Positions 18,415 through 42,176 of a stretch of 64,000 bases of DNA are shown here, one piece after another. How positions within the stretch are numbered: position 1 is the stretch's first letter; the number at the start of each line of letters is the position of its first letter. This stretch comes from Aphrocallistes beatrix (Eukaryota > Porifera > Hexactinellida > Sceptrulophora > Aphrocallistidae). Under the pieces are notes generated by a model. That model had not been told where the DNA came from and did no database searches. It worked only from the letters and a program-made list of their open reading frames with translations. The position numbers and the translations under genes are program-made. Location of the stretch: the NCBI GenBank assembly GCA_963281255.1, contig OY725500.1, positions 682,001 to 746,000 on the forward strand, written 5' to 3'.

Positions 18415-20453
18415 CTACACTGTGGACCCCCTCCTATTAACCGTACCACAAAATTTCGAATCCTCTGGTCCCCCTGATATCTTATGTAGACCACTAAGGC
18501 TGTGAACCACTGCACGAATGTAACCGTAGACTAATGACAATTGAGTAATCCTTGTTAGAGAACCAGAAAGCGAAGTATTGTTCTCTGACATCCCAAGCAC
18601 CCACAGGGAAATCGCTTGTCTTGTATGAATTTCATTAGTGGAATGTGATACATATGTATTGTATTGTGTCCTAGTTTGCATGAGCATAATTACGGACAAG
18701 GCTTCAGTAAATACTTTAATTAATTCGTAAATACAATAAAATAAATACATAAATACATGAATACATAATTTATTAAATATACAACACAACACAGAAAAAG
18801 AGAAAGAAAAAAGAAAAAAAATACAAGTATACACACAACACAACAAAGAGAGAGAGGTAGGGAAGCAGTGTTTCATTATCTAAATTTAGAAGGTCGGATA
18901 AACCGTAGCAAAATACATTAGTATATGCCTAACTTACATTTCAATAATACTTTTGCTCCTTTTAGCCTGGGGCTTGCCTTCGGGCCCTTCCTCCGTAGCA
19001 TCTACAAGATAAATGTAGTGATAGATATCTGAGTTAGTCGTATAGCTGATTAGTATGTATCCATTTGATTATAATAACATACATTTACGGGCCTTTCTGG
19101 CCAAATCCAGGAGCTGCACCTTTTTTAAGGTGCAGGGTTCCTGAAAATTTTCTCCAGTCCACCATTGCGGCTGGTAGGCTGTATCAAACCAAATGGCATG
19201 ACTCTTCACATGCAATCCCATGGAGTCTAAAGGATGAGAAAATATATATTTACACTCGTTATATTGCAGTTCCTAGTGTAGGAGAGATTGTACCATATTA
19301 GGACCATCTATTCCTTATATGGTGGAGATCTGAACCTGATTTCAAATTCTAAAAATCACACCTTTTCACAAAAGGTGTCAAATTGTATTAACCCATCAGA
19401 ATCCATGGATTTAACATTACAGTTGGTTTGATTTTGAATGGTAGGGATTACTCTCTAGCCTAATGTAAGAATTATTCATATTTTCACACCTTCGCTCAAA
19501 ATGTGACCAATTTGATGACCAATGAAATTTTGAGGTTTTAATTTTACAGGTGAATTTAATGTAACTGGTTAATATGGAATTGACCTAATTCAATGCACAC
19601 AAACAATGAAATTACTGTCGAAACGATTGGCTTAAATGAAAATGTTGACAAAACAAGACTACTTCAAGTAATGGATTTTTAATAACTTGACATTTATTGC
19701 ACTATGTTCATAGCTTTTGGAGATTAAGACAATCACCTGTATATAACGATCACTCAAGGGGGCCTTGGGTGATCGTTATATACAGGTTCCACTGTACTTT
19801 ATCATCTCTAGTGTTACGGATTTTAAGATGCTCTACGATCTACGTAAGGTACGATAATACAGGTTTTATATCCATTAGGATTATAGGATTATTGGTTGTT
19901 CGTTCACTCATTTTGCATGCATTTATTACCCCGAGAAAAAACTTTCAAATTATGCTTCCATTCTCAGAATATATTCTAGAATTTGTGCGAATAAATCGAA
20001 AATGTTGTGATAGTCGGTACTTGTAAATGTTGCGTGCTGTAATTTTTAAATGTCTCAAGGATAGGGAAGGTAGGATAAACCGTAGCAAAATACATTAGTA
20101 TATGGTTAACTTACATCTCAATGATTTCATTCTTTGTTCTCTTCGGCAGGGGTGTCTCTACCACTCTCTCAGTCTATCTACAAGATAGATGTAGTGATGG
20201 ATTTGTAATTAATTAAACCTAACTCAATACATATAAATTAATTATACGAGATCTCCAGGGTTACTATTTGGTATTCAATATGTAGATTTCAAATATTACA
20301 TTCCGTGTCTTATTATCTTTTATTTATTCTAAGATCTTAAACTAGGAATTCTGTAATTAGTTAATACCTGTACAATAAATTCAACTTACTCTGACATGCG
20401 TGAACTTTTTCACGGATTATCTTTCTTAACAGTTCACAAGTCATCATCTCCAT
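18415..20453 (-). CDS. Mini-gene family copy, type 2 (uncharacterised)
   Basis: Not recognised. Proposed exons on the minus strand, in transcript order: A 20453-20390 (MEMMTCELLRKIIREKVHAC), D 19226-19083, B 19001-18938 and E from 18670. Splice signals are GTAAGT/GTATGT donors and CTTTAG/TTGTAG acceptors, and phases agree (1, 1, 2). Exon D encodes IWFDTAYQPQWWTGENFQEP, then CTLKK. Exon B has ATEEGPEG followed by a basic KRSK stretch. Exon E reads TRQAISLWVLGMSENN and runs into sequence derived from a hAT-like MITE before its stop at 18415. Exon A could belong to a neighbouring damaged unit, because a decayed B-like exon lies at about 20135-20190. Compare the plus-strand copy at 38214. Confidence 0.45.
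18420..18512. mobile_element. hAT-like MITE fragment (CAGTGGTTCCCAACC family)
   Basis: Matches the 2737 and 14921 elements: TGTGGACCCCCTCCTATTAA at the left and GTGAACCACTG at the right. The left terminus is missing. It overlaps the open frame that ends the 18415-20453 mini-gene. Confidence 0.65.
19734..19794. mobile_element. Minimal pogo-like hairpin, CAGTGGAACCTGTATATAAC family
   Basis: A 61-bp near-perfect palindrome: CCTGTATATAACGATCAC on the left and its complement on the right, ending CAGGTTCCACTG then TA. Little more than two terminal repeats. Confidence 0.65.
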
Positions 20454-21480
20454 AGTTGAAATAAGAATACGTATAATAATAATATTATTATAATAATATA
20501 GTTTTGAGTTTGATTGATTTGGATATTATTTCATGATTCATGATTATATATGATTCTCAATTTATCTGTTGAGAGATTATCCATTCAAATTTAATGCATC
20601 TATTGGCTGTTCACTCATTTTTGCATGCATTAATTGAATTAAGTTAATTGATTTCCTACTACGCATTTAGAAATGAATCTTCTCAGTGTGCCTAAATTAG
20701 GTTTATGAATCATTATTGGAATTATTTTAAGGATATACATATTAGTTGGTTTAATTTGTTGCTACAAGAATAAGAATATAAGTATATGTTCTAAATATAC
20801 ATCATCACTCATATGCTATTTATAGTATACCTTAGTGCAGGGATTATTAACTTTTTTGATGAATTGATATAAAATATTATTGGGAAGTCATAGAGGTTTC
20901 GGATGAGACTCATACTACTTATATTCGAGGTAATACAGTATAATTATTTTGCTATTACCAGAAAACCGACCATCTAATATGTACACATAGATTAGCCTAC
21001 TCTAATAATACCTCACAGTAAAATAACCAAGGATGCGGTAATAGCTGAATTTTTTTTGGTGTGTCGTATCGGCCATTTCATCAGAGTCGCGTCTATTAGA
21101 TAAACGTAGTTTGTAACTTAAAAGTATAATATCTAATGAGTATTCATTTTATCAGAATAACCAAGGTTGAAACCGCTTCAACCAAATACAAATTTAACCG
21201 AATTTTTAATTGACTTAATGACTTAATATGAAGTAAGCAAAGTTGATTGTATTGATTCAATTTTGTTTGTGGTATGTGATACATACTATGTATTGTCTTG
21301 TATCCTATTTTGCATGAGTGTGCATAATTACGGACAGTCTCCAATAAAATGATTTAATTCGAAATAACTGAATGAATACATAAATACACGCAATACAATA
21401 CAGGGAAATATATATATATAGAGAGAGGAATTGGGTGGAGGTAGAGAGATGGCATTGTCTAAATTTAGAAGCCTGTAGGG

Positions 21481-22547
21481 TAAACCGTAGCAAAATACAT
21501 TAGTATATGGTTAACTTATATCTCAATGATACTTTTACTTTGTGCCTTTTAGGCTTGGGCATTCCTTCTACCCCTTCCTCCGTAGCATCTACAAGATAAA
21601 TGTAGTGATAGATATATGAGTTAGTCATATAGCTAATTAGTATGCATGCATTTGATTATAATAACATACGTTTGATGGGCCTTTTTGGCCAAATCCAGGA
21701 GCTGCACCTTTTTTAAGGTGCACGGTTCCTGGAATTCACAGCCACTCCACCAGGGCCTACGATAGGGTGGGGCAGCCGGGGCAGTGCCCCGGGGTCCATA
21801 CCCCGAAGGAACCTTAAATTAGAGACAAAAATTTGTCATTAAAGTCATTGAATCTAATTGTAAATTTATCTTAAATTGATAGTATCAATACTTTCTTACC
21901 ACAATGTGATAAAACTACTAGTGCTAAAATTTAATTGCAAAGGCTAGAATCTAGAACCATTAAACTGAAATTATGATATCAATGAATCTAGAACCATTAA
22001 ACTGAAATTATGATATCAATGGTTTTCTTAACATATTGTGATAATTATCACAATATATTATGCAAATTATGACATAGGTATTATGTTACTTCATTGTAAA
22101 ATTACTTTGAGAGTGTGTATGTGATAATTATTCATTAAATAGTTTGTTATACTTGTGTTGTATATATACATGTACAATGTATTTTCAAATAAAATTTCAA
22201 AACAAATTCGTATCGTACATCCTATATTTCTCCTGAAAATGCACAAATCTGGAGCTCAAAAAAGACGCGAGAGAAAAAAGAGAGAAAGACATTATTAAAT
22301 GTCTAGTTGGTATTTGTTATATACGTACTTAATTTAACTCTAATACTCATCACTTTCAATTATTTCCTTCTATTATTTACCAAAATCATATGACTATGCT
22401 GCGCATAACTTTTATAATTTTGTATAGAGGGGGCCCATCGATACGAGCTGCCCCGGAGCCTTTCGATTCTATCGGCGGCCCTGCATTCCACCATAGCGGC
22501 CTCGAAATGCCAAATGGCATGACTCTTTTCGTGCAATCCCATTGTGT
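21481..22547 (-). pseudogene. Mini-gene copy, type 2, exon D split by a hAT element
   Basis: Exon D of the family runs from 22547 to 21670 but is interrupted by the 21751-22483 insertion. Exon B begins at 21588 (ATEEGVEG), but its donor reads ATAAGT instead of GTAAGT. The copy is therefore broken. An exon-E-like stretch follows at about 21250-21330. Confidence 0.6.
21751..22483. mobile_element. hAT-like non-autonomous element, CAGGGCC family
   Basis: A 733-bp insertion with inverted ends CAGGGCCTACGATAG and, reverse-complemented, CAGGGCCGCCGATAG. Flanking 8-bp duplications CACTCCAC (21743-21750) and CATTCCAC (22484-22491) differ at one base. No transposase frame seen. Confidence 0.75.
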
Positions 22548-23215
22548 CTAAAGGATGATAAATATATATTTACACTCGTTATATTGCAGCTCCTAGTGTA
22601 GGAGAGATTGTACCATATTAGGACCATCTATTCCTTATATGGAGGAGATATGAATCTGATTTCAAATTCTAAAAATCACACCTTTTCACAAAAGATGTCA
22701 AATTGTATTCAGAATCCATGGATTAAACATTACAGTTGGTTTGATTTTGAATGAGTATGCATTTTATCAAAATAACATACACTCTATGCATCTTTCCAAA
22801 GAATTAGAAAGTTTTTATTGTTGATTCCAATGGGATATCGAAATGACATTGCATTTCTAACCTAAACATTAAATAGAAAATTGGTCGTCATTAAGCCATC
22901 ATCCATGCGATTAACTTCAATAACGATAACAATGTAATACATATGTATTGTCTTGTATCCTATTTTGCTTGAGTGTGCATAATCACTTTATCATCTCCAG
23001 TGTTACTAATTTTAAAATATTCTACGATCTACGTGAGGTACGATAATGCAGGTTTTATATCCATTAGGATGCATATACATCGAACGTACCAATCACCATA
23101 ATTTTTCTCTCACAACAATCCTATATGCAAATCGAAAGCTGATCCCCTGAGCTATTCAATCGACAAATCGAAAATAGTATATTTTCACTAACTTCTGAAT
23201 ACAGATCACGGCTCA

Positions 23216-25208
23216 GTACTTATGAAATGACCTAAGTGGCTACATGTGTGACTACTATATGTGTATATAATGTTTCTCTGATATCCCCAAGCACCCAGTA
23301 GGCAACTATGCGTTGTTGTATTGTATAAATTTAGTTTGTGGAATCTAAGTAACATTATTTAATTCGTTAAATTAATAAATACACATAACACAACATGGAA
23401 AGAAGGAAAGAATAAATGCACACACAAAACACAATACAGAAAGAGAGATAGAATGAGAAAAAAGAGAGAAAAGGGGAAAAATAGAGAGATAAATAGAGAA
23501 AAAAAGAAAGAGAAAAAAGAAAAAAAGAGAATAAATATCAACAAGCACAACAAAACACAACACGAAGAGAGTAGATACTTTAGTCTCTAAATTTAGAAGA
23601 TAGGATAAATCATAGCATATAGTATATGTATTGTAGGCTATGCAGAACTTACAATTCAATTATTTCTTCCTTAATTTTTTTTTTGGGGGGACTGCCCTCT
23701 GGCGTTTCTTCAGTAGCGACTACAAGATAAAGTTAGTGATAGATATCTAAGTTATAAGTACTATATCTAATTAGCATGCATGCATTTGATTATGATAACA
23801 TACATTTAATGGCCCTCTTCCAGAGTGCGAGGAGATTTGTTTTTTTTATAGAGCAGGGCTCTCCAAACCCTACTCCCCTCCACCACACAGGCTGAAACGC
23901 CTCGGCCCAGACCACATGTTTTTGTGTGTGTAGATTGTTGTTGACTAAAGGATGAGAAAATATATTTAATCTGCTCGTTCCTGGAAATTCTACTAATACT
24001 ATTCGCACTAAATTAGAACCATATATTCCGTATATGGTTGAAATCTCAACCTGATTACAAAATTCAAAAAATTTTACCTTTTTCACAAAAGGTGTCAAAA
24101 TGTATTAACCAATCAGAATCCATGGATTTAACATTACAGTTGGCTTTGATTTTGAACTATAAGAATTATACTAAACTCAATGAACGTACACAAATTAGAA
24201 TTACTCTCTGCCTTATGTAGGAATTATTCATATTTTCACACCACTCAAAATGTGACAAATTTGATGACCAATGAGATTTCAAAGTTTTAATTTTACAGTT
24301 GAATTTAATGTAACTGGTTAATATGGAATTGACCTAATTCAATGCACACAAACAATGAAATTGCAGGTTTTAGTATTACAGTTGACTTTGATTTTGTTGA
24401 TGAATTCAGGAGTTAGAGCTAACTCAGTGCACCACACAAACAAGTTAGAATTACTGTCGAAACGATTGGCTTAAATGAAAATGTTGACAAAACAAGACTC
24501 TGCTAATCATGGAATTGAAGGTTTTAATCTTGCAATTGCCTTTGAGTTACCCAAGATGGACTAATTAGACTTGATCAATGTATATACTATATAAATAGTA
24601 GTAGTGTCCAGTGGAGTGGAGCTTGCTTATTAGCAACCAATCTTCAGGTCCCAGGTAAAGATTTTGTATTAATTCCGTTCCCTAGAATAACTTTGTGTAT
24701 TAGCAACCAATTTGTGAGCAAAAACACAAGTTTCCAATAAGCAAATTCCACTGTATATTATAATTACTCCATTAACTTGTAATTAGATAACATACAAAGA
24801 CTATACGTATTATGGAAATAGATTAATCAAACGAGATACATTGCTATTATAGTATTCATTATGTAGACTTCAAATATCCGATTTTGTGAATTACTATGCA
24901 TGTAGTTATGAGAATATTTAAGTAATTGACCACTATAGTTGGAAAACTAAAACCTAGTTTTTGATTAAATCACTTTATCAAATCCAGTGTTACGGATTTT
25001 AATTAAGTTATTTTACGATCTACGTATTGTACGATGATGCAGGTTTTATATCCATTAGGATTATTACTTGATTATTACTGTAAATACCAGAGTAACATAA
25101 TTAAACTAGGAGTGCTAAATGCAAATACAATAAATTCAACTTACTTTGGTAATCCAAGACTTTCTGTCTTAAAATTTTTCTTAGTATCTCACAAGTAACC
25201 ATTTCCAT
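23216..25208 (-). CDS. Mini-gene family copy, type 1 (uncharacterised)
   Basis: Not recognised. Exons on the minus strand: A 25208-25145 (MEMVTCEILRKILRQKVLDY), D 23944-23804 (141 nt), B 23719-23653 (67 nt) and E starting at 23344. Phases fit (1, 1, 2). Exon D encodes HVVWAEAFQPVWWRGVGFGE, then PCSIKK and LLALWKRAIK. Exon B reads ATEETPEGSPP followed by KKKIKEEIIE, a possible nuclear localisation signal. The A-D intron holds a pogo-like MITE (24609-24753). The B-E intron contains a long polypyrimidine tract (sense strand) at 23395-23530. The 3' end of exon E is not firm, since its frame differs between copies. Confidence 0.5.
24609..24753. mobile_element. pogo-like MITE, GCTTATTAGCAACC family
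   Basis: Left region GTGGAGCTTGCTTATTAGC, right end CAATAAGCAAATTCCACTG then TA. Inserted in the A-D intron of the 23.2-25.2 kb mini-gene copy. Confidence 0.7.
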
Positions 25209-26539
25209 TTCAAAAAATTTTAAGTTATACACATACATAAGTAAATATACTATATATAGTCTTCTCAATTTGTCTGTTGAGATATTAGTCATTCAAATTT
25301 AATTGGTTGTTCACTCATTTTGGCAGCATTAATTATCCCGGGAAAAAACTTAAATTATGCTTTACTCATTTCCGGTTTGAGTCATTTTGGGCGGGAAAGC
25401 CATAGGAATTTCATTTCATCACTTCCTTATTCGGATCTACGAGATAAATGCGTTGATAGATAAGTTACAAGTACTCCACCTAATTAGTTAGTTACCTTGG
25501 TTTTCCCCCTTGAATTTTGGTGTGTGTCGTATCGGCCATTTGATCAGAGTCGCGTCTATAAGATAAACGTAGTTTGTAACTTAAAAGTATGATATCTAAT
25601 GAGTATTCATTTTATCAGAATAACCAAGGTTGAAACCGCTTCAACCAAATACAAATTTGAATTTTTAATTTACTTAATGACTTAAGCTATTTCTGAAATA
25701 CAAATTACCAAATAAAGAAAGTGATAAAATGAAGTTTCAGTAATGCAGAACTTGAATATTATTTCGTTTGATGTTTACAAATACTAATATCTTACATTCC
25801 ATAAGAGAAAATGGTAAAGTCTCTTCGGATGAAAATATATTTGAATTCACATTAACCGTATACGGCCGGTAATAATTCGTTTGATTTATTCAATGACTTT
25901 TTGGTCATCAATTAGGTTTTAAAAGTTCCATTTTGGGGTTTCAATACTTTCTAAGAACATTGATGATCGATAGCTAGTTATTTTTTTACCTACACTTAAG
26001 TGAACAATATTTATTAGGATATCATTCTCACTTACTTCAGCTAACTTCAAGCTATCATTCCAACCATACAAGAATAGTTATAATATTATTGTTTGTACAT
26101 TCTTACAATGCAAGATTATGTTATCAATTCCCCAAATCCTGGATCCAATGCTTGATTTGGCTATGGTAATTAATTGCGAAATTAGAAGCGTTGGATGATC
26201 GTAGACTAGTTCAGAACTGATCATTACTTATTTTCACTTGCAATTATATATCAATCAGATCCAATTACCTATGGTTTCCACTCTAGAGATTCCTCTAATT
26301 ACAAGTATTTGTTATAATTGAGAAGCAATACATAGACTATAATCTAGACTATAATCCTATTGTATAAACAAGAGTCCCCCAATTGTATAAGCTAGGCATG
26401 TCCCTATTATGAAAATTGTGTAAACTAACTTGTGTTTGAATAAATAATTGACATATATTGGTACAGTTGACTATACTAACTATTTACAATATTTACAATA
26501 TATACAACTCTCTCTTCTCTCTCTCTCTCATCAAGTCCC

Positions 26540-26964
26540 ACCAGTTCTTGGCCATTTCCCATCCTCCCACTGTCCTCCAGCAATTATTGACAGTTTGTGG
26601 CACAGGTGTCGCGATTAGCCTTGCTCGCGAGTCGGACTACGCTGAGTTGAATGCAAAACTCACTAAGTTGGAAGCATCTAGCGAATCAGGATTGTCGACG
26701 CTTGCAGACAAGTTCGCTCAGATGGAGCACAGCATTGGAGCTGCTATCACGGAAGTTCTGAGAGAAAACCGCGAACTTCGAGCTGAGAATGTACGTCTGA
26801 GTGCGCAAATTAGAAGCAGCGAAGTCACTACTCAGCTTGACGGAACTTCTGCTTCTCTTCCATCAATCACACCCACAGTGGGACCATCCCCACCAACAGT
26901 GAATGTCAGTAACAGCGATCAGCAAGAGGTTGTTTCATCTCCAAAGCAATGGTCACGCGGCTGA
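26540..26964 (+). CDS. Coiled-coil exon, plus copy of an inverted pair
   Basis: Encodes SLARESDYAELNAKLTKLEA, then a leucine-rich coiled coil and a Pro/Ser-rich tail ending QWSRG. It is an inverted near-duplicate of 27395-28028. The frame stops at WSRG, where the other copy continues. No start or promoter is evident. It does not resemble a family I know; it could be an exon of a dispersed element. Confidence 0.4.
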
Positions 26965-27394
26965 CTAATCTAAAGAAAAATATCCAAAGCGCATCTATAT
27001 TTATTGTTACTCAATCTTATATTTGTTAGTTTGGTCAAATTTATTTAGAGATTGGTTAGTATTAGAGACCTGAAAAGCAATCAAATGATATGGCGACAAA
27101 AGAATTTGATTAACAAACTTGCCATACTTTCTCTGAAAATTTTGACATGTTTATTTATCATATATGACGAGACAATACTATGCCTCTAAAGCAAAATGAG
27201 AAATATGGATTCGAATCTATTGTGACTTCGACGCCTGAAACTTTGTATAATTAGGAGATCTATGCTAATTTTGTTTACGTAAGATTTAATATTTTAACAA
27301 TTTTATTTGTTAATTCGTTGTGCAGATTCCGAATCTCAGAAGTTATAATGTCTAATTATATAATTAAAATAATAATAGAAAGCAAATAACTTAC

Positions 27395-28028
27395 TAAGTC
27401 GATCAGGTTGCTTTAATTGATCTAAAGATCGTAAATTGTTGCCGCGTGACCATTTATTTGGTGGTGAAACAGCTTCTTGTCGAACGCTGCTACTGACATT
27501 CACTGCTGGTGGGGGTGGTCCCACTGTAGGTGAGATTGGTGGAAGAGAAGCAGAGGTTCCGTCAAGCTGAGTAGTGACTTCGCTGCTTCTAATTTGCGCA
27601 CTCAGACGTACATTCTCAGCTCGAAGTTCGCGGTTTTCTCTCAGAACTTCCGTGATAGCAGCTCCAATGCTGTGCTCCATCTGAGCGAACTTGTCTGCAA
27701 GCGTCGACAATCCTGATTCGCTAGATGCTTCCAACTTAGTGAGTTTTGCATTCAACTCAGCGTAGTCCGACTCGCGAGCAAGGCTAATCGCTGACACCTG
27801 TGCCGTCAAACTGTCAATAGTTGCTGGAGATGTGGGAGGATGAGGAGTGGCCGAGGAACTGGATTGGGAGGGAGAGAGAGGGAGAGAGAGGGAGAGAGAG
27901 GGAGAGAGAGAGAGAGAGAGAGGTTGAGAGAGAGGGTGATCGGGAGGCTGGGTGTTGGACCGGTCCGGAGGATGATTATGGGGAGGGGGATCATCCCCCC
28001 GCCCCAGACAGCGGAAGAAATTATTCAT
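27395..28028 (-). CDS. Coiled-coil exon, minus copy of an inverted pair
   Basis: Open from 28028 (Met) to a good GTAAGT donor after 27395. Residues about 30-60 are a low-complexity PLSLSLSP stretch encoded by a GGAGAGAGA microsatellite (27868-27930). About 75-150 form a coiled coil (TRLxxKLTKLEASSESG-like, with LRENRELRAENVRLS). A Pro-rich region, then WSRGNNLRSLDQLKQPDRLS, leads to the splice site. Downstream exons were not identified. It shares its coiled-coil DNA with 26540-26964 in inverted orientation. Confidence 0.4.
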
Positions 28029-28494
28029 TTTACTAAAAAGTACATATGACAGGTAAAGGATTACATCTGAAATGCTATAAAGTGAATTGAGATACTTACC
28101 GGAAATATTTTAAGAACTTTATTGTGTCCAATCAATAAATAATATCAATAAATAATAAGTCTTTTATAAAAAAGATAAGGTTATTAGTTTTGTAATAAAG
28201 TTTGTTGCTTCAATATATACCTGAGCTCTTCCTTCTTGGGAGGCCTTCACAAGTACATGTAGTCGTAATTGTTATCGTAATTGTTAACTTGAGTTCTATG
28301 TCTATTATATTGTAGTTCATTGGAAACACCTAAGTGATATTATTAACAGATTTATATTTAATATGAAGTAAGCAAAGTTGATTGTATTGATTAAATTTTG
28401 TTTGTGGAATGTAATACATACTATGTATTGTCTTGTATCCTATTTTGCATGAGTGTGCATAATTACGGACAGTCTCCACTTAATTCGAAATAAC

Positions 28495-28600: not shown

Positions 28601-28621
28601 CAAATTCTAAAAATCACACCT

Positions 28622-29001: not shown

Positions 29002-29497
29002 TTTTTCTATCTAACAACCCTATATGTAAATCGAAAGCTGATCCCCTGAGCCGTGATCTGTATTCAGAAGTTAGTAAAAATATACTATTTTCGATTTGTC
29101 CAATCAGTACTTATGAAATGACCCAAGTGGTTACATGTGTGACTACTATATGTGTTTATAATGTTTCTCTGATATCCCCGAGCACCCAGTAGGCAACTCT
29201 GCGTTGCTTACATTGTATAAATTTAGTTTGTGGAATCTAAGTAACATTATTTAATTCGTTTAATTAATAAATACACACAACACAATACAGAAAGAGAGAA
29301 AAAAAGAAGAAAAAAGAAAAGGATTGAAGAAAAGAGAAAAAGAGAGAGAGTAAAATGAGGATAAATATCAACACAGGACAACAAAACACAACACAATACA
29401 GAAGAAAAATTTTCAGTAGATACTTCAGTCTCTAAATTTAGAAGATAGGATAAATCATAGCATATAGTATATGTATTGTAGGCTATGCAGAACTTAC

Positions 29498-29787
29498 ATT
29501 TCTATTATTTCACCCTTAACTTTTTTTTCTGGTGGACTGCACTCCGGCGTTTCTTCAGTAGCGACTACAAGATAAAGTTAGTGATAGATATCTAAGTTAT
29601 AAGTACTATATCTAATTAGCATGCATGCATTGAACATACATTTAATTGCCCTCTTCCAGAGGGCGAGGGCCGAGGAGATCTGGTTTATTTATAGAGCAGG
29701 GCTCTCCAAACCCTACTCCTTCCCACCACACAGGCTGAAACGCCTCGGCCCAGACCACATGTTTTTTCATGTGTAGATTGTTGTTTA
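29498..29787 (-). pseudogene. Mini-gene family copy, type 1 (exons D and B)
   Basis: Exon D 29787-29640 (VVWAEAFQPVWWEGVGFGEP, then CSINK). It is longer than the 141 nt of other type 1 copies, and the frame near its 3' end (LLGPRPLEEGN) departs from LLALWKRAIK. Exon B 29564-29498 is 67 nt and intact. No exon A is seen close upstream, so this copy is probably dead. A partial type 2 intron fragment lies at 29935-30090. Confidence 0.55.
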
Positions 29788-30479
29788 CTAAAGGATGAGA
29801 AAATATATTTAATCTGCTCGTTCCTGGAAATTCCATTAATCCAATTCGCACTAAATTAGAACCATATATTCCTTATATGGTTGAGATCTCAACCCGATTA
29901 CAAAATTCAAAAAATTTTGGGTTGATAGGCATCATGCGATACTGCATGATTTTTGTCGTGCAATCCCATTGTGTCTAAAGGATGAGAAAATATATTTACA
30001 CTCGTTATTGCAGCTCCTAGTGTAGGAGAGATTGTACCATATTAGGACCATCTATTCCTTATATGGTGGAGATCTGAAGCTGATGGTGGAGATCTGAAGC
30101 TGATCACCACTGTGGTAAGGAAATATACTATTCATGCACAGTAGTATTGGTTTATCACCAGGACCAATTTGGTTTCACTAATTAAAAGTGTCATATTTTT
30201 CTGAGGTTTCATTTGTAATCTCAAAAAAATAGTGAAATAAACTTGACAAAATTGATGATGATATTTCCGGGACGAAACTTCCTGGGACGAAATTTCCGGA
30301 GACGAAATTTCCAGGAGACGAAATTCCGAAACCCCCCCTGAGCTATTCAATGGACAAATCAAAATAGTATATTTTCACTAACTTCTGAATACAGATCACG
30401 GCTCAGTACTTATGAAATGACCTAAGTGGCTACATGTGTGACACTATATATGTATATAATGTTTCTCTGATATCCCCGA

Positions 30480-31900
30480 GCACCCAGTAGGCAACTCTGC
30501 GTTGCTTGCATTGTATAAATTTAGTTTGTGGAATCTAAGTAACATTATTTAATTCGTTTAATTAATAAATACACGTAACACAATACAGAAAGAGAGAAAT
30601 AGAGAAAAAAGAGAGTAAATATCAACAAGCACAACAAAACACATCAAGAGAGTAGATACTTCAGTCTCTAAATTAAAATAAAGATAAATCATAGCACATA
30701 TATGTATTGTAGGCTATGCAGAACTTACATTTCGATAATTTTTTCCTTAATTTTCTTTTGGGGGGGACTGCACTCCGGCGTTTCTTCAGTAGCGACTACA
30801 AGATAAAGTTAGTGATAGATATCTAAGTTATAAGTACTATATCTAATTAGCATGCATGCATTGAACATACATTTAATGGCCCTCTTCCAGAGGGCGAGGA
30901 GATCTGGTTTATTTATAGAGCAGGGCTCTCCAAACCCTACTCCTTCCCACCACACAGGCTGAAACGCCTCGGCCCACACAACGTTATTTTTTCATGTGTA
31001 GATTGTTGTTTACTAAAGAATGAGAAAATATATTTAATCTGCTCGTTCCTAGAAAGTCTACTAATACTATTCGCACTAAATTAGAACCATATATTCCGTA
31101 TATGGTTGAAATCTCAACCTGATTACAAAATTCAAAAAATTTTTCCCTTTTCACAAAAGGTGTCAAAATGTATTAACCAATCAAAATCCATGGATTTAAC
31201 ATTACAGTGGCTTTGATTTTGAACTACATATAAATATTATACTAAACTCAATGAACATACACAGTTAGAATTACTCTCTGCCTTATGTAGGAATTATTCA
31301 TATTTTCACAACTTAACTCAAAATATGACAAATTTGCCGACTAACGAAATTTCAGGGTTTTAATTTTACAGCAGAATTTAATATCTTATTTATTCCAACT
31401 CAATGGTGTTTTAGTGCAACTTCTAGTATAGGAGATGCCTTATGTCATGACGGCGTGCGACGTCCGTACATACGTCCGTCTGTCAATGGCGGATCCAGGG
31501 ATCCGGACCCCTTTCGAGAACTAACAAAGTTAATGCACTCGTGGAATAATTGTATACATTATAATTACTGTAATAATTTTGTTTAAAACTAACATATAAT
31601 AGTGAGTAATTATTGATATTTTTCAGAATGACATTTTCAGATAACCTGGGTAGGATATGAGTATTTAAGTTGTTGACCACTATGCATAGTAAAGGAAAAC
31701 TAAAACCTATTTTTCCATTAAATTAGTTTATTATATCTAGTATTACGGATTTGATATATTCCAAGATCTACGCAGAAACTATAATGCAGGTCTTATGACC
31801 ATTAAGATTATTAAGTGCCCTGTTATTGGTAAATACAATAAATTAAACTTACTCTGATAATCGAAAACTTTTCTGATTATCCTTCTTAATTGGTGTCCAT
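30480..31900 (-). pseudogene. Mini-gene family copy, type 1, probably decayed
   Basis: Exon A-like stretch at about 31845-31900 (GHQLRRIIRKVFDYQ, start region changed), exon D 31012-30871 (damaged near its 5' third), exon B 30795-30729 (67 nt) and exon E from about 30535. The polypyrimidine tract in the B-E intron is present but short. Confidence 0.5.
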
Positions 31901-32052
31901 TCTCAGAATATATTCTAGAATTTGTGCGAATAAATCGAAAATGTTGTGATAGTCGGTACTGTAAATGTTGCGTGCTGTAATTTTTAAATGTCTCAAGGAT
32001 AGGGAAGGTAGGATAAACCGTAGCAAAATACATTAGTATATGGTTAACTTAC

Positions 32053-32910
32053 ATCTCAATGATTTCCTCTTTGTTCTCTTCGGCGGGAGTCTCTTCCGCT
32101 TCCTCCGTAGCATCTACAAGATAAATGTAGTGATATATATCTGAGTTTGTCGTATATCTAATTAGTATTCATTTGATTATAATAACATACGTTTGACTGC
32201 CCTTTTCCAGAGGTCCATTAGCAGTCCCTTCTTTATGTAGCAGGACTCTTTGAAATTAACCCCCTTCCACCATGGGGGTTGATAGGCATCATGCCATACT
32301 GCATGATTTTGTCGTGCAATCTCATTGTATCTAAAGGATGAGAAAATATATTTATACTCGTTATATTGCAGTTCCTAGTGTAGGAGAGATTGCACCATAT
32401 TAAGACCATCTATTCCTTATATGGTGGAGATCTGAGTGGAGATCTGGAGATCTTTTCACCTTTTTATGCCAGAGTACCATAATGAAACTAGGAATGCTAA
32501 GCGTAAATACAATAAATTCAACTTACTCTGATACTCCAGGACTTTCTCCCTGATAATTCACTAACCAATCTTAAATTCTTTTTTGTAGGCTTCAAATATC
32601 TGATTTCGTGAATTATGCATGTACATGTAGTTATGAAAATATTTAAGTAATTGACCACTTTAGTTGGAAAACTAAAACCTAGTTTTTGATTAAATCACTT
32701 TATCACTCCAGTGTTACATATTTTAAGATATTCTACGATCTACGTAAGGTATGATAATGCAGGTTTTATATCCATTAAGATTATTAAATACCAGAGTAAC
32801 ATAATGAAACTAGGAATGCTAAAAGCAAATACAATAAATTCAACTTACTTTGATATTGCAAAACTTTTTCCTGACAATTTTTCTTAATGACTCGCAGGTG
32901 ACCATTTCTA
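32053..32910 (-). pseudogene. Mini-gene family copy, type 2
   Basis: Exon A at about 32910-32849 (EMVTCESLRKIVRKK; the usual first ATG is changed), a second A-like stretch near 32525-32570, exon D 32330-32191, and exon B 32113-32053 (61 nt, shorter than the 64 of the 18.9 kb copy). Likely non-functional, or a diverged variant. Confidence 0.45.
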
Positions 32911-33291
32911 TTGAAAAAAAAATAGTTATAATGTATAAGTTATACACATACATATGTAAATAGTATACTATATATATAAATATACTATATATACTTTTCT
33001 CAACTTGTCTGTTGAGATATTAGTCATTCAAATTTAATTGGTTGTTCACTCATTTTTGCATGCATTAATTATCCCGGGAAAAAACTTGAAAAAACGGGGA
33101 AAAATTACTCATTTCCGGTTTGGGTTATTTTGGGCGGGAAAGCCATAGGAATTCCATTTCATCACTTCCTTATTCGGATCTACGAGATAAATGCGTTGAT
33201 AGATAGTTACAAGTACTCTACCTAATTATTTCCCTTGGTTATTCCCCTTGAATTTTTTGGTGTGTCGTATCGGCCATTTAATCAGAGTCGC

Positions 33292-33360: not shown

Positions 33361-33416
33361 AGGTTCCACTGTACTTTATCATCTCCAGTGTTACGGATTT
33401 TAAGGTGCTCTACGAT

Positions 33417-34101: not shown

Positions 34102-34184
34102 TCTACGATCTACGTAAGGTACGATAGTGCAGGTTTTATATTCATTAGGATTATTAAATGCCAGATTACCATAATGAAATACAA

Positions 34185-34241
34185 TAAATTCAACTTACTC
34201 TGGTATTGGAGGACTTTCTCCCTCACTATCCTTCTAACCCA
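34185..34241 (-). pseudogene. Exon A of a mini-gene copy, cut by the assembly gap
   Basis: Minus strand WVRRIVREKVLQYQ followed by a GTAAGTTG donor, matching exon A of the family. Its start lies in the run of N. Confidence 0.5.
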
Positions 34242-34641
34242 NNNNNNNNNNNNNNNNNNNNNNNNNNNNNNNNNNNNNNNNNNNNNNNNNNNNNNNNNNN
34301 NNNNNNNNNNNNNNNNNNNNNNNNNNNNNNNNNNNNNNNNNNNNNNNNNNNNNNNNNNNNNNNNNNNNNNNNNNNNNNNNNNNNNNNNNNNNNNNNNNNN
34401 NNNNNNNNNNNNNNNNNNNNNNNNNNNNNNNNNNNNNNNNNNNNNNNNNNNNNNNNNNNNNNNNNNNNNNNNNNNNNNNNNNNNNNNNNNNNNNNNNNNN
34501 NNNNNNNNNNNNNNNNNNNNNNNNNNNNNNNNNNNNNNNNNNNNNNNNNNNNNNNNNNNNNNNNNNNNNNNNNNNNNNNNNNNNNNNNNNNNNNNNNNNN
34601 NNNNNNNNNNNNNNNNNNNNNNNNNNNNNNNNNNNNNNNNN
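34242..34641. other. Assembly gap (400 N)
   Basis: Exactly 400 unknown bases. The round length suggests a scaffold gap of arbitrary size. Confidence 0.98.
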
Positions 34642-34986
34642 GACAATGACGTTATAATTCAAACTTTTAAATCTACGGGCCACTTTAAAAATTAGGCTCC
34701 GCCTTACGGGCCACAAATCATAGATCGCCTCTGGCTTTAGTTTGATCAATTTTCAAGCTATACTATTTGACCTCATATTGCATTAACAATGGATTCTACT
34801 TGTAAATTCAGGTTATTGACTTAAATTGTAATCTTTTGAATGGATTCGAATCATTTGATGTCTCTTTTGAACTCAGCTTGTTTTCTAGCAAGTGGGCAAT
34901 AGTACTAAACCTAGATTTGGGTATACTATGTACTGTTCATAGTAGAATAACATTGCAGAAAAATCTACCTAAACTACGAAATTTAG

Positions 34987-35409
34987 CTAATGAGAGTGAT
35001 GATGTTGCTTGGAATTAACTAATAAATCAATATCTGCTTCTATATCAGTCGTTGCTAGACGAAGACACTGCTCCAAATGTGAATCAGTGATGGTTGATCT
35101 AATTGTGGAATTTGTATGCTTCATGCGGGAGAACATCTGCTCACATAAATATGTGTTTCCAAAGAGTGAAAATATTTTTGCTGCGTGCGTTGTCAATTTG
35201 GGAAAACTTTCCGCTGATACACATGTTTTATAAAATTGTAGCAGTGGAACTAGGAACATTGATGCATTTGTAGAGTATCTATAATTATTTCTATATGGTG
35301 TTTAGAAAAAACAATTATTATCTGACGATTGAAGCACGTCAATCTACTGTATATATATGAATAATGAAAACAAGCGAATTATCCGCGGGCCACCGTTTGA
35401 GCACCCTTG
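34987..35409 (-). mobile_element. hAT transposase C-terminal remnant with one terminus
   Basis: Minus-strand frame 35259-34987 reads FSLFGNTYLCEQMFSRMKH, then TIRSTITDSHLEQCLRLATT and ADIDLLVNSKQ. This is the C-terminal dimerisation region of hAT transposases of the Charlie/GTF2IRD2/ZBED type. A hAT-like end (CAAGGGTGCTCAAACGGTGG on the minus strand) lies at 35390-35409. Only about 130 bp separate that end from the C-terminal domain, so the front of the gene is deleted. The other terminus is probably in or near the gap; GGGCCAC motifs at 34677-34718 resemble subterminal sequence. Confidence 0.75.
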
Positions 35410-35462
35410 CTCTAGGTTATGCTGAAATGGATATGACCTGATAAAGTTGATTCGCTTATAAT

Positions 35463-35800
35463 AATGAGGTTTAACCCACAAAAAGGGGTTTTACCCAACC
35501 CGGTTTCAACCTGAATTTAACGGAGGGGTGGATTAAACCTACCAACCCTGGTGGTGACCAATTCTAATATCTCTGTTAGCTCATCTGTGAATGATATGTC
35601 ATTATTCGATCAGTACTAATTACCTTTGACCGAGTTGACGTCATCAAATGAATTATTAACTTGTATTACACTGTTCTTGTTTAAAGACGTTGCAGTATTG
35701 ATTGGAAAATTTAGAGGCTGCATCTGTGTTGATAATTTAGCCTCGGGATAATCAATTTCACGTTTTTTAGTGGATCCACTTCTAAGAATGAAGAAGCAAG
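35463..35800 (-). repeat. Inverted repeat partner of 28622-28957
   Basis: Minus strand carries the same 158-nt exon-like block (35781-35624), here with acceptor CTTAG and donor GTAATT. It encodes SGSTKKREIDYPEAKLSTQM. Downstream similarity reaches 35463. Confidence 0.65.
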
Positions 35801-36112
35801 AGAAGCACCTTCTGCCATTAATAATACAATTCTATAAATTATAATAGTAAATGTTAGAATAAAACTTAAAGTTGTAGTATTTACAAAGAAAAGCCTATTA
35901 ATTCTTAAATAGCATTAAAATCTCAGGCGCATGCGCCTCGTCGATTTTAATAGCTCCCTAAAAACCATTCTGACAAGTGACAGCAGTCCTAAAAACATTC
36001 TGACAAGTGACAACATACTGAAAAACGTTTCGGACAAGTGAAAGTCCTGCTCTTTCGGACAAATGACAACTTCAAAATTCGGACATATGCTGGCAACCCC
36101 TTTAAATGATAT

Positions 36113-36376
36113 CTAATCAGAACTGCTGTCATGTTTGGGGCACAGGTAGTGATAGGAGGTGTGTGATGCCTTGGATCCTGTACTGGAGCCGTTGGAACGG
36201 GCATAAAAATAGTTCTGGGCGCCGGTATCGTGGGATTCCTGATTAAGTTCCATGGAGCAGGAAGTAGGTGGGTGGGTGAAATCTTTGTCGATGGTGTGAT
36301 AGCCCCGACTCCGGTGATACTCATCTCCCTTTTCATTAGAAAAAAAGAGCAGGGTTTTGGAATGGGATGTCACCAT
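36113..36376 (-). CDS. Possible orphan 3' exon (87 codons)
   Basis: Minus-strand open frame, GC-richer than its surroundings. It reads SNEKGDEYHRSRGYHTIDKD and is rich in Ser, His and Tyr to a stop at 36113. A pyrimidine tract and AAAAG precede GGAGATGAG at about 36337, which could be an acceptor. No homology recognised and no upstream exon found. Could be chance. Confidence 0.22.
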   Translation of the reverse strand: MVTSHSKTLLFFSNEKGDEYHRSRGYHTIDKDFTHPPTSCSMELNQESHDTGAQNYFYARSNGSSTGSKASHTSYHYLCPKHDSSSD

Positions 36377-36558
36377 GCTGGTTTTCCCTCCTTGATCTAT
36401 CTTACTCTTCTTCCACCTTGTTTTTGTAATACCGCTTTACTGAGTCTGCATCTAAGTGATCCGACTGACTATATTACAGATTTGGGTTTCAATCGTTTGT
36501 TTTCATAGCTTTCTGGACATATGACTCTGGCAAATTTTAATGAACACATTGTCTATAA

Positions 36559-36899
36559 CAGTGTTTCCCAAGCTAATTTAGCACACCGCCCCCTAATCAG
36601 GATTTTACTGTCGACACCGCCCCCCTTACTCATGATCTGCAAGCCATCAACAGTGTAATTGTATTGTTTAGTCACGGGAAACCATTGACAGTGTGATTAT
36701 TGTACTTGCTAGCTCTAACAACTACGGTGAATGTTGAAATTTGTTTCAAAGATTGATCAATATTCTGGAATACACATTTTTTTGATGTTCAAATATCGTA
36801 GATGTATTGCTAACAAAATACATTAGCACCCCCCCCCAGCGCCCCCTGACATTATAGCGCCCCCCTGGGGGGCTCTACGGCCCACTTTGAGAACCACTG
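36559..36899. mobile_element. hAT-like MITE, CAGTGTTTCCCAAGC family
   Basis: A 341-bp element with ends CAGTGTTTCCCAAGC and CTTTGAGAACCACTG. Perfect 8-bp target duplication GTCTATAA at 36551-36558 and 36900-36907. GCGCCCCC runs lie inside both ends. Confidence 0.88.
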
Positions 36900-36907
36900 G
36901 TCTATAA

Positions 36908-37659
36908 TAACGACTTATTGAACTACCTTACACTTGTACAATTATTAGCTGAAAGTCAAGCATTAAATTATAAAAAAGGATAATAAACAAACGCATTATT
37001 TTCAGAGGCAAGTTATTATTTATATTCTTGTTTTCGTTTGTTTGAATGTATTTTTTAATAATATTATATCCTCTTTTAGGTATGCTGTATTCTACTCAAG
37101 CGGCCACCTCTGTATAATATCGGTCAGCTGGACATAGCGGACAGCTAAGAACAGTCCCGCCAGATTTCCTTAATATTGAACCTGTGTATGGCGGTCGCCT
37201 GCTCAAGATCTCTTTGCTTATTTCACTTGTATTTTTCAGTCCTAAATATAGAACAGATGTGTTTTATACTCTCCATACTTTTGTGTGAACATTTACTTGT
37301 ATGCACTCAATTAAATCAATAAATCAATTAAAATCAGAGGTCAGGCCATTCGGAATATAGTGGGTGTGCATAGTGAGTATAAAATACAGAATAGGTTGCA
37401 CCAAATAGGAAAAATTCGGTCGACAAGCCGATAGTGCAGCTCCAGGAAGTGACTCAAAGGAACATGACATGTGAATATCGGAATACATCGGGAAATACTC
37501 ATTCTAGTACATTCTACTTGTAAGTGTGAAATTTGGAATCAACATATTAAAATACCCTATATTAGCCGGTGAGAGCTCGCTTTTAGCTTAAAATAATTAT
37601 AGGTTTGAAAATTTGTATATATTAATATGTTATCCTTACTATTAAAACTCGATTAATGT

Positions 37660-37697
<38 letters not shown>

Positions 37698-38213
37698 TAT
37701 ATATACGAATTGATTGAAGAAACTACCAGCCACAGAAAGCTAATTTGGCATGTGAGAGTCTTGGCTATGGCTCCACTAAGTTCAGACCTCAGATGAAAAT
37801 GTCGACCCATCGTGGAATTATGACGTGATTGTCACCATTTTTATAATTAGAAATTTGAATTTTCATTTGCATCAGGTATACTGTAATTACCACAGTCGTG
37901 ATAATGTGTATGTAGAAAACGTATACGTATATTCCTATCCTTTCAGCAACTAATTAAACCAACTAACATATCCCTACAATAATTTCAACATTGATTATTA
38001 ATAAACATAATATAGGCACACTGAGAGGATTCATTTCTAAATGCGTAGTAATAAATTAGTTTACTTAATTAAATTAATGCATGCAAAAGTGAGTGAACAA
38101 CTAATAGATGAATTAATTTTGAATGGATAATCTCTCAACAGATAAACTGGGAATAAATATATAAAACAGTTTTACATTATATTCTCGATATTTAAAAATT
38201 ACAAATTGCAAAT
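36908..38213. other. Intergenic, AT-rich, with a TA microsatellite
   Basis: No gene seen. An AT dinucleotide run lies at about 37664-37704. From about 37980 the sequence matches the upstream flank of other mini-gene copies. Confidence 0.4.
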
Positions 38214-40468
38214 ATGGATATGATTGATAGCCATCATTTAAGAAAGATAATTAGACAACTCGTGTACGAGTATCAAAGTAAGTTGAATTTATTGTATTTA
38301 CTAATTACAGGGCACGTACTAATCTTAATGGTCATAATACCTGCATTATAGTTTTTGCGTAGATCTTAGAATATATCAAAATCCGTAATACTGGATATAA
38401 TAAAATAAGCATTAATTAATGAGTGTGTGGGCGGTGGAGCTATACTTAGCAATGAAAAAATCCGTAATACTGGATATAATAAAATAATTTAATCGAAAAA
38501 TAGGGTTTAGTTTTCCAACTTTTCTCTGAGTAGTTGTCAACAACTTAAATGCTCTCATATCGATAGACTGTTAGTGCAGCTCCATTGAGTGACTCGTAAG
38601 ACTCGAATTGTGATTTTGAAATCTGCATATTGAATACTATATAGTAATTATGAAGATCTTGTTTGATTAATTCATTTCCTAAATGTAGTATTGCAATAAT
38701 TGCATTGTAAACTATCTAATTCAAGTTTGTGGAGTAATATACGTATATGTACAATATATTCAAATGCTAATTTTGTTTGTTTGTCCGAATTGATTGAAGA
38801 ATTGGCAAGTCGTGGAAATATGAAAATTGTCAAATGATGAATCCACGATTAAGTTCGAAGATTTAACCGAAAATTTCACACCTCGCCGAGATGACAAATT
38901 GTGCAGATCAATGAACTTCGACTATTTTATAATACAAAATACGTTGGGATCTAAACAGAGTGACTTACATCTACCAAGTAAACATTCGAAGGGATATTTG
39001 TGATTTAAATTCATTGGTTCAAGCGAGAACCAATTTATAATGCGATTCACACGATTCTATTTCACTCAAATGATTGAATTCAGCTATTTTAGTCTGTCAG
39101 TTTCAACGGAAATTATAATATTAATTTCATAAGATGCATTCAATTAACTGTGCCTCACTTGTATCCTCACACAAAATCGAGCTCGTCGTTGGAGGCATGA
39201 AATATGAAATGATGTATGCATCTACTTTACTCACATTTCAGTTGTCCGTCTATTCTAGATTTTGAATTATGCTGTTGTTGCGAGGAGAACTGAAAAATAT
39301 TCATAATTATTCACTATTATACGAGTTTTAGACGGACGTATGTACGGACGTCGCACGCCATCATGACATAAGGCATCTCCTATACTAAAAGTTACACTAA
39401 AACACCATTGAGTTGGAATAAATAAGATTTTAAATTCTGCTGTAAAATTAAAACCCTGAAATTTCGTTAGTCGGCAAATTTGTCATATTTTGAGTTAAGT
39501 TGTGAAAATATGAATAATTCCTACACAAGGCAGAGAGTAATTCCAACTTGTGTATGTTCATTGAGTATAGTATAATCCGTATAGTTCAAAATCAAAGCCA
39601 ACTGTAATGTTAAATCCATGGATTCTGATTGGTTAATACATTTTGACACCTTTTGTGAAAAGGGTAAAATTTTTTGAATTTTGCAATCAGGTTGAGATCT
39701 CAACCATATAAGGAATATATGGTTCTAATTTAGTGCGAATAGTATTAGTAGAATTTCTAGGAACGAGCAGATTAAATATATTTTCTCATCCTTTAGTTAA
39801 CAACAATCTACACATGAAGAACAATGTGGTGTGGGCCGAGGCGTTCCAGCCTGTGTGGTGGAAGGGAGTAGGATTTGGAGAGCCCTGCTCAATAAAAAAA
39901 AAAGATCTCCTGGCCCTCTGGAAAAGGGCCATTAAATGTATGTTAAAATAATCAAATGCATGCATGCTAATTAGATATAGTACTTATAACTTAGATATCT
40001 ATCACTAACTTTATCTTGTAGTCGCAACTGAGGAAACGCCGGAAGGCAGTCCCCCCAAAAAAAAAATTAAGGAAGAAATAGTTGAATTGTAAGTTCTGCA
40101 TAGCCTACAATATATATACTATATGCTATGATTTATCCTATCTTCTAAATTTAGAGACTAAAGTATCTACTCCCTTCGTGTTGTGTTTTGTTGTCCTGTG
40201 TTGATATTTATTCTCTTTTTTCTTTTTCTCTATTTTTCCTCTTTTCCCTTTTCCCTTTTCTTTTTTCTCTCTCTCTCTTTTTCTGTATTGTGTTGTGTGC
40301 ATTTATTCTTTATTTATTTATTTCCATGTTGTGTTATGTGTATTTATTAATTAGACGAATTAAATAATGTTACTTAGATTCCACAAACTAAATTTATACA
40401 ATGCAAGCAACGCAGAGTTGCCTACTGGGTGCTTGGGGATAGCAGAGAAACATTATATACACATATAG
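38214..40468 (+). CDS. Mini-gene family copy, type 1, best-preserved (uncharacterised)
   Basis: Not recognised; I infer a four-exon gene of about 120 residues. Exons: A 38214-38277 (MDMIDSHHLRKIIRQLVYEY), D 39797-39937, B 40022-40088 and E 40378-40468. Donors are GTAAGT, GTATGT, GTAAGT. Acceptors are a pyrimidine-rich TTTTCTCATCCTTTAG, TCTTGTAG and TTACTTAG. Phases 1, 1 and 2 match at all junctions. Exon D encodes VVWAEAFQPVWWKGVGFGEP, then CSIKKKDLLALWKRAIK. The QPxWW..G..F.EP core weakly recalls the PxWWP..VPF motif of NRF1/P3A2-type DNA-binding proteins; this is only a resemblance. Exon B has PPKKKIKEE, a possible nuclear localisation signal. The D-B intron is 84 bp. The B-E intron has a long pyrimidine tract (about 40200-40330). 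Exon E (FHKLNLYNASNAELPTG) is the weakest part. The A-D intron is long and holds the 38876 repeat. Confidence 0.55.
38876..39090. repeat. Dispersed repeat, copy of 12698-12920
   Basis: Shares the CACACCTCGCCGAGAT start and the GATTCACACGATTCTATTTCA block with 12698-12920. Lies in the A-D intron of the plus-strand mini-gene. Confidence 0.6.
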
Positions 40469-40618
40469 TAGTCACACATGTAGCCACTTAGGTCATTTCA
40501 TAAGTACTGAGCCGTGATCTGTATTCAGAAGTTAGTAAAAATATACTATTTTGATTTGTCCATTGAATTGCACAGGAGATCAGCTTTCGATTTGCATATT
40601 GACTACCAGGACAAAAGT

Positions 40619-41494
40619 ACATGTGTAGCTACATGTGTAGCTACACGTGTAGCTACACGTGTAGCTACATGTGTAGCTACATGTGTAGCTACATGTGTAG
40701 CTACATGTGTAGCTACACGTGTAGCTACATGTGTAGCTACATGTGTAGCTACACGTGTAGCTACATGTGTAGCTACACGTGTAGCTACATGTGTAGCTAC
40801 ACGTGTAGCTACATGTGTAGCTACATGTGTAGCTACATGTGTAGCTACACGTGTAGCTACATGTGTAGCTACACGTGTAGCTACACGTGTAGCTACATGT
40901 GTAGCTACATGTGTAGCTACATGTGTAGCTACACGTGTAGCTACACGTGTAGCTACATGTGTAGCTACATGTGTAGCTACACGTGTAGCTACATGTGTAG
41001 CTACATGTGTAGCTACACGTGTAGCTACATGTGTAGCTACACGTGTAGCTACATGTGTAGCTACATGTGTAGCTACATGTGTAGCTACATGTGTAGCTAC
41101 ACGTGTAGCTACATGTGTAGCTACATGTGTAGCTACATGTGTAGCTACATGTGTAGCTACACGTGTAGCTACATGTGTAGCTACATGTGTAGCTACACGT
41201 GTAGCTACATGTGTAGCTACACGTGTAGCTACATGTGTAGCTACATGTGTAGCTACATGTGTAGCTACACGTGTAGCTACATGTGTAGCTACATGTGTAG
41301 CTACACGTGTAGCTACATGTGTAGCTACACGTGTAGCTACATGTGTAGCTACATGTGTAGCTACACGTGTAGCTACACGTGTAGCTACATGTGTAGCTAC
41401 ATGTGTAGCTACATGTGTAGCTACACGTGTAGCTACATGTGTAGCTACATGTGTAGTTACATGTGTAGCTACATGTGTAGCTACACGTGTAGCT
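40619..41494. repeat. 73-unit 12-bp palindromic minisatellite (ACAYGTGTAGCT)n
   Basis: 876 bp made of exactly 73 units of 12 bp. In register the unit is GTGTAGCTACAC, which is its own reverse complement. One position varies: I count 25 units with ACACGTGT and 48 with ACATGTGT. One further change (GTAGTTAC) occurs near 41456. Because 12 is a multiple of 3 and the unit lacks stops, both strands show long open frames (repeating CVAT/RVAT/CSYM). These are artefacts, not genes. It starts 151 bp after the last exon of the mini-gene at 38214-40468. Confidence 0.97.
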
Positions 41495-42176
41495 TTTGAG
41501 TTTAATAATGTTTCCACATTTTTCTAAAGTACTTGTACTTGTACTTAAGTACTTTCTTGTTGTCCTTCACTTTTTATATTAGTAGTATGAAATGAATGCC
41601 ATCAATATATTTCCAACACAATATTTATTTTTACTTTGTAGTGATACTTAGTACTATATTATGATTTTGTGTTAGTGTCCCGTACTACTTCAACATTCAA
41701 TTAAATAAATGTGGGTAATATTATTTAAACCATTTTGCACTATTAGCACAAGAGATCTATCATAGAGCTTGGAAAGTACTTGTACTTGTACTTAAGTACT
41801 TACAGAAGTACTTGAACCCAACCCTGGCATACATACTAATTAGATATAGAACTTTTACTTATAAATCTTGTAGATGCTACAGAGGAATTGGCTAAATTGG
41901 AATGATTAATTGCAGTGTCCTCAGAAAATTATAAGGAAAAGAGTTTTGAATATATCTAGAGCAGTAAGTGAGTTGAATTTTTAGTATTTACAAACTATAG
42001 TTTCCTGATTATGATTCTAAGCCACTTAATAATCTTAATAGTATGTAGTCTATTCGGACCTGACCAGGGCAATTAATGCTGTACCTTCAAAGCCATCCAG
42101 TACCAGCAAGAAACCCTCCGACACCAGCGCCAAGGACTATATTTTCCCCTCTCCCAATCCCGGCGCCAAGACGCAA
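41495..42176 (+). other. Intergenic with mini-gene debris
   Basis: Plus-strand remnants of the mini-gene family: B-like ATGCTACAGAGG after TCTTGTAG at about 41871, and A-like LRKIIRKRVLNIS at about 41935. A short codon-like, GC-richer patch at 42065-42170 (SKPSSTSKKPSDTSAKD) might be an orphan exon. No complete gene. Confidence 0.35.

Follow-up and report, generated by a model that had tools for sequence, protein, structure and literature searches.

NRF1 is usually a single conserved regulator. Residue R206 of its helix alpha5 and residues N242 and R244 of its linker are described as contacting bases and W224 as contacting the backbone, and the DNA-binding domain (DBD) alone is reported to bind a TGCGC half-site (PMC10810270). 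A peak of divergence within the coding sequence of gene-converting paralogs has been described for exon 5 of the human red and green opsins (PMC3924837), and a coding divergence peak despite gene conversion is likewise indicated for copepod GOT1 paralogs (PMC3728101). The present analysis concerns a gene array on a contig (C14) of the hexactinellid sponge Aphrocallistes beatrix, in which three exon-like blocks, designated A, D and B, recur. The window, that is the whole stretch of 64,000 nucleotides analysed, corresponds to C14:682001-746000 of the assembled genome (100.5 Mb, 28 contigs). The array probably represents a set of stand-alone miniature NRF1-type DBD proteins of about 91 residues, encoded at mosaic loci and perhaps acting as sequence-specific regulators or competitors. 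The homology and architecture of these proteins have been shown by computation.

Array Organization and Gene Model

Searches with exon queries (tblastn) placed copies of blocks A, D and B along 18.9-34.2 kb of the minus strand, together with a single plus-strand set at 38.2-40.1 kb, all other window matches having far lower scores. Seven D-bearing units (c1 to c7) are present, with stray A, B and D fragments between them. A preliminary description of this DNA had correctly noted the recurrence of the same blocks, the predominance of the minus strand and the good plus-strand copy (c7), its estimate of about ten copies becoming seven units plus fragments. A single open A+D+B frame, of 91 residues, is found only in c1, c3 and c7. 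As located by tblastn, splice reading and frame check, c1 (minus strand) comprises exon A at 20390..20453, which is the recognition-helix part and runs from the ATG to a phase-1 donor, a type 1 exon D at 19083..19226 and exon B, to its TAA, at 18934..19001. By tblastn and frame check, the corresponding exons of c3 (minus strand) lie at 25145..25208, 23804..23944 (type 2) and 23649..23719, and those of c7 (plus strand) at 38214..38277, 39797..39937 (type 2) and 40022..40092, both again ending in TAA. In these open copies the described block order A-D-B, the splice borders and phase 1 at both junctions hold, with exon A ending in phase 1 and D being a phase 1-1 exon, and in-frame stops occur 21-87 nt 5' of the ATG in c7, c1 and c3.

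The remaining four units, all on the minus strand, are broken, in keeping with the earlier view that the family was amplified locally and that part of its copies have decayed. In c2 (21516..22545), exon D is split by an insert of about 0.7 kb and B is shifted, and no exon A was found by tblastn with the exon queries. Units c4 (D and B, 29494..29787), c5 (D and B, 30725..31012) and c6 (type 3 D and B, 32049..32330) are frameshifted in D by a 7-nt insertion, a 1-nt insertion and a 1-nt deletion, respectively, and c6 is also frameshifted in exon A (32849..32911, tblastn), where the first-codon ATG is lost and 1 nt is deleted. Three D types were distinguished instead of the two subtypes first proposed, namely c1/c2, c3/c4/c5/c7, and c6 together with an open unit on contig C18.

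The stop of exon B is an in-frame TAA within a donor-like GTAAGT in seven of eight copies examined, and a splice donor at this position is possible; in c2 the GT of the motif is lost and the TAA is out of frame with exon B. The candidate exon E of the preliminary description (40378..40468, plus strand) contains, by eye, a 29-codon frame after an AG, and this frame likewise appears uninterrupted in c4, c5 and the C18 unit. Exon E was rejected as coding, since B ends in the in-frame TAA, the equivalent region is shifted in c3, and the AG is missing from c1 and c2 (by eye). The evidence favours a three-exon model of 91 residues, in place of four exons and about 120 residues. Exon B encodes a charged, partly basic tail, which would allow nuclear entry and is compatible with the nuclear protein that had been suggested.

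Coding Divergence and Mosaic Loci

Between D types, the D+B coding sequences show dS values of at least 1.60 or not computable, with pS of 0.66-0.83 and dN of 0.29-0.47, while the same-type pair c3 and c7 gives a dS of 0.38 and a dN of 0.05. Intron 2, on the other hand, shows 85-94% identity across types and 98-100% within type 2 (c2 excluded, 12 columns). Exon D forms a clear two-sided island of divergence in six of 12 pairs (c1-c6, c1-C18, c3-c5, c3-c7, c4-c7 and c5-c7), as illustrated by c1-c6, where an identity of 0.64 in exon D is bordered by flanks at 0.98 and 0.94; the exon-versus-flank test gave p 2e-11 for this pair and p 0.0018 for c3-c7. Only intron 2 stands above D in five of the 12, the final 60 bp of intron 1 having diverged like the exon (0.56-0.65), and c6-C18 shows no island around exon D. 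For exon A, an island is seen in c3-c6, with identities of 0.90, 0.76 (48/63 in the exon, the 1-nt deletion of c6 being gapped) and 0.95 (p 0.0035), and a weaker one in c1-c7 (0.77, 0.64 and 0.84); none is seen in c1-c3 or c3-c7.

A partly comparable pattern occurs among single-exon relatives. Another exon relic in the window (13194..13271, plus strand), NRF1-like with the motif WWPEGVPF and one stop, was used as a query and gave seven other weak genome matches (E 0.03-0.10), two of which, on C9, are intronless open reading frames (ORFs) that combine a D-like motif with an A-like helix. When one of the two served as query, 39 places were reached at E<=1, including tandem arrays on C17, C4 and C9. 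Most listed pairs of these intronless paralogs have pS of 0.60-1.00, with lower values in L045-L046 and L052-L059. Two-sided islands were found in two of nine windowed pairs: L053-L059 (5' 0.94-0.96, coding 0.58, 3' 0.83; test 4.6e-16) and L056-L060, located on different contigs (5' 0.85-0.97, coding 0.67, 3' 0.92; test 1.4e-10). Five pairs (L054-L058, L054-L060, L054-L056, L058-L060 and L045-L047) have only the 100 bp before the ATG clearly above coding, the test of coding sequence against 5' flank giving 7.6e-14 in L054-L058, and two (L052-L059 and L045-L046) run in the opposite direction. The sequence TATAAATA, found 33-44 nt before the ATG in eight of 12 intronless paralogs (L045, L047, L049, L052, L054, L056, L058 and L060), is likely their shared core promoter.

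Coding and flank genealogies were compared in four trios, picked after the identity tables had been inspected. L059 is L052-like in its coding sequence and L053-like in its 5' flank (p 1.7e-21), L054 is L060-like in coding sequence and L058-like in flank (p 9e-6), L060 combines likenesses to L054 and to L056 (p 0.007), and in the C18 unit D resembles that of c6, but B and the 3' flank resemble those of c3 (p 3e-12). Because the two genealogies conflict in all four trios, recombination inside the genes is shown, and the loci are mosaic. Recombination or gene conversion would homogenise introns and flanks in many pairs, and we infer a selective cause keeping the coding types apart, by which old, distinct coding versions would be held separate despite the homogenised non-coding DNA around them.

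It is conceivable, though rather unlikely, that introns and flanks evolve slowly through function, as promoter, splicing or RNA elements, and that exon divergence merely reflects the normal rate among old paralogs, with no conversion. Such constraint would suit the intronless paralogs, in which the 100 bp carrying the putative promoter form the best conserved flank and the 5' side alone is raised in the five pairs listed above. It accounts poorly for intron 1, where a dispersed repeat, which should be free of constraint, shows 94-98% identity between c3, c5 and c7 and about 73-82% in copies elsewhere, and it is also at odds with the conflicting genealogies.

The protein itself appears to have been conserved. 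In pairs with computable dS, dN/dS is 0.05-0.30, which supports purifying selection; a ratio below 1 had been named as support in the preliminary description, in which the saturation of silent sites between types went unnoticed. Diversifying selection, with dN above dS, was considered and rejected on the same ratios. That the exons are functionless, decaying remains, in a non-coding repeat cluster with chance open frames, is quite improbable: the breakage of four of the seven units and the D-only relics on C1 and C9 agree with decay, but such remains would not be expected to show these ratios, or to keep open frames in c1, c3 and c7 at saturated silent distances.

Relationship to NRF1

The family had at first been regarded as matching no known one, and a chain of profile comparisons together with a shared intron position now places it as NRF1-DBD-like. 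Exon A corresponds to the recognition helix (NRF1 helix alpha5) and exon D to the W...P-WW...F linker and last helix, so that the two would together form a miniature NRF1 DBD. Three profiles were used, A2 holding four rows from the window, A5 holding 12 intronless paralogs and A4 containing the host NRF1. In profile comparison, A2 matched A5 across both helix and motif with a score of 66.7 (E 4e-13), compared with a maximum of 21.8 in 150 column shuffles of A2. When 165 window ORFs with lengths of 60-110 residues served as decoys, the top score was 34.5, and five of the top six (34.5, 30.0, 29.5, 26.4 and 21.9) are family exons or a relic at 17195..17434 (minus strand) that resembles the helix of the intronless paralogs (LRxKVRKLVLASQ); the next decoy scored 19.9. 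Against six NRF1-like rows, A2 scored 26.4 (shuffles at most 19.5) and A5 64.9, and A5 scored 34.8 against the host NRF1. The connection between the window proteins and NRF1 is made as a chain via the intronless paralogs, because the direct score of A2 with the host NRF1 alone (17.3) is not above its shuffles (at most 21.2).

In database searches, the A4 profile finds NRF1 in PDB at 1.4e-8 and 7.3e-8, and with A5, which does not include the host NRF1, NRF1 ranks first in the PDB search (0.058). Spliced window proteins submitted singly to Pfam and PDB returned nothing over cut-off, PF10491 included, and a genome search with PF10491 gave 23 places, among them one clear NRF1 on C1 (E 1.3e-47), with the window absent. 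A structure model of a paralog has NRF1 as its best fit, not far above GTF2I repeats, for which the family searches, including those with window proteins and A4 rows, found no sequence family match. A model of L025, built without an alignment, was discarded (pLDDT 41).

The intron between A and D lies 11 residues after the LR motif, in phase 1, in c1, c3 and c7, and a phase-1 intron is seen by eye at the identical residue in L027, L031 and L018 (L034 type), which are longer NRF1-like genes, the intron of L018 requiring a GC donor. The first exons of these three genes resemble one another (tblastn E 1e-8 or better) and look like the NRF1 dimerisation part, a likeness unsupported by Pfam (L018) and by tblastn against the host NRF1. 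The host NRF1 ORF and the intronless paralogs have no intron at this position. The resemblance to NRF1 is highly unlikely to be convergent, with the window genes stemming from an unrelated short helical protein rich in Trp; the missing direct sequence match of the window proteins to NRF1, the alteration of WWP to WW, K/R/T and G, and the fit of GTF2I repeats to the paralog model would allow it, but the profile match covers both helix and motif and the intron agrees exactly in residue and phase with the longer genes.

Alignment to NRF1, with the contact residues numbered by hand from its structure and paper data, indicates that the window proteins keep the arginine of R206 and the tryptophan of W224, with E in place of N242 and C in place of R244. 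Among the intronless rows, 12 of 12 have R at the R206 position, 13 of 16 have D at the N242 position, and the residue at the R244 position varies (A, C, K, M, N or R). These replacements suggest a changed and varied DNA specificity, in which the retained arginine should recognise a G, and E and C, at the two substituted contact positions, may direct binding to sites other than TGCGC. A full-length NRF1 factor would be expected to bind GCGCATGCGC as a dimer and to carry a dimerisation domain ahead of the DBD. The mini-proteins would bind DNA as monomers; in-frame stops shortly precede the ATG of c7, c1 and c3, as given above, and two dimerisation-like queries found nothing in the window, in a weak search given that the same queries miss the host NRF1.

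Relatives in the Genome

At E<=1, exon D has nine places in the whole genome, seven in the window, one in the C18 unit and one, a decayed relic, on C1; a truncated copy on C9 was reached by DNA search with intron 1, and the C1 and C9 copies contain D only. The merged places of exon D, PF10491 and the intronless ORF, with the relic, number 66 on 17 contigs, 56 of them outside the window family and relic; these are places and not genes, as weak matches and decayed and mobile-repeat copies are counted. C1:2010871, from the search with the relic, is omitted from the merge. The array is part of an extensive NRF1-like radiation within the genome.

The 3' flank of the units runs into a dispersed repeat (40 scored of 337 first-look candidates) and intron 1 contains another (40 scored of 519 candidates), both being elements separate from the A-D-B unit. 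Genome-wide mobile spread, which the preliminary description had named, with defined termini, among the findings that would refute its reading, is not seen for exon D in the search above. It is extremely unlikely that the array is mobile-element cargo, since these repeats, and another NRF1-like gene, which lies 4.7 kb from the C18 unit within a repeat of young, mobile appearance, are outweighed by the match of exon D to just two places outside the window, the copy number on which a mobile unit was rejected as the main reading, while no common termini were noticed around the units, a point on which no formal comparison was made.

The young repeat was observed, with its NRF1-like gene, at seven loci on different contigs (L034, L035, L036, L037, L038, L039 and L041), as matches of 1.3-2.7 kb with 98.2-99.8% identity, these lengths being matched stretches and not defined ends. 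It also carries an ORF with a PHD finger over the cut-off and a sub-threshold Ulp1-protease match. The intervals L018:9104-9901 and L023:584-1171 belong to the same observation.

Neighboring Features

The stray fragments between the units, all on the minus strand, comprise a 5' fragment of a type-3-like exon D (29916..29972) and exon A fragments upstream of c5 (31854..31901) and at 34212..34238, the latter interrupted by 400 N (34242-34641), all found by tblastn, and an additional exon A fragment near c6 (32528-32557). An inverted pair of near-identical coiled-coil-like ORFs, at 26452-26964 (plus strand) and 27336-28109 (minus strand), lies inside the array between c3 and c4 and gave no Pfam family above cut-off. 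Adjoining the 3' end of the array is a tandem repeat with a 12-bp unit and about 73 copies (40618-41494), with related 12-bp and 140-bp arrays at 43.4-44.3 kb. ORFs judged by eye to be NHL-like are located near the array, at 9765-11189 and about 13.4-13.7 kb, and also near the C18 unit (L018:2546-3898).

Significance and Comparison with Known Systems

For the miniature NRF1-type proteins, the likeliest role would be that of sequence-specific regulators, or competition with longer NRF1-like factors. A bolder proposal, which we consider decidedly unlikely, is that they form a diversifying repertoire in which coding cassettes move from locus to locus beneath promoters and introns that are nearly identical, one scaffold thereby yielding many DNA specificities, in parallel to KRAB zinc-finger arrays and perhaps directed against the mobile repeats that carry NRF1-like genes. 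The interest of the array lies in its exon-limited divergence. DBD-only arrays with altered contacts, and with introns less diverged than the coding sequence, would show a fixed DNA-binding fold becoming a diverse repertoire, and would offer a natural case of selection opposing gene conversion.

The domain itself is a known one, represented here by an expanded, unusual branch and apparently a new variant. With the NRF1 (erect wing, P3A2) DBD (PF10491; PDB 8k4l and 8k3d), the window proteins share the LR-arginine helix, the linker with W and P-WW, and the last helix, but they differ in having no detected dimerisation domain, in being encoded by small multi-copy genes and in the change of WWP to WWxG (WW, then K, R or T, then G). 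The intronless WWP mini-proteins of the C17, C4 and C9 arrays and elsewhere have the same two-part domain and small size, but consist of a single exon, keep WWP and in many cases carry a Pro/Ser-rich tail, unlike the basic tail of the window proteins. A further likeness is to the fungal YDR124W-like helical bundle (PF11001), which 19 of 22 A4 rows match at E<=0.1 (best 5.4e-6), although the best row falls under the curated cut-off (26.9 versus 31.3 bits) and the window proteins have no match. No description of such mini-NRF1 gene arrays was found in the open-access listings searched. When compared to opsin exon 5 and GOT1, the divergence peak described here recurs in the exons of one array and, on other contigs, across the entire coding sequence of intronless genes, and it has reached saturation at silent sites.

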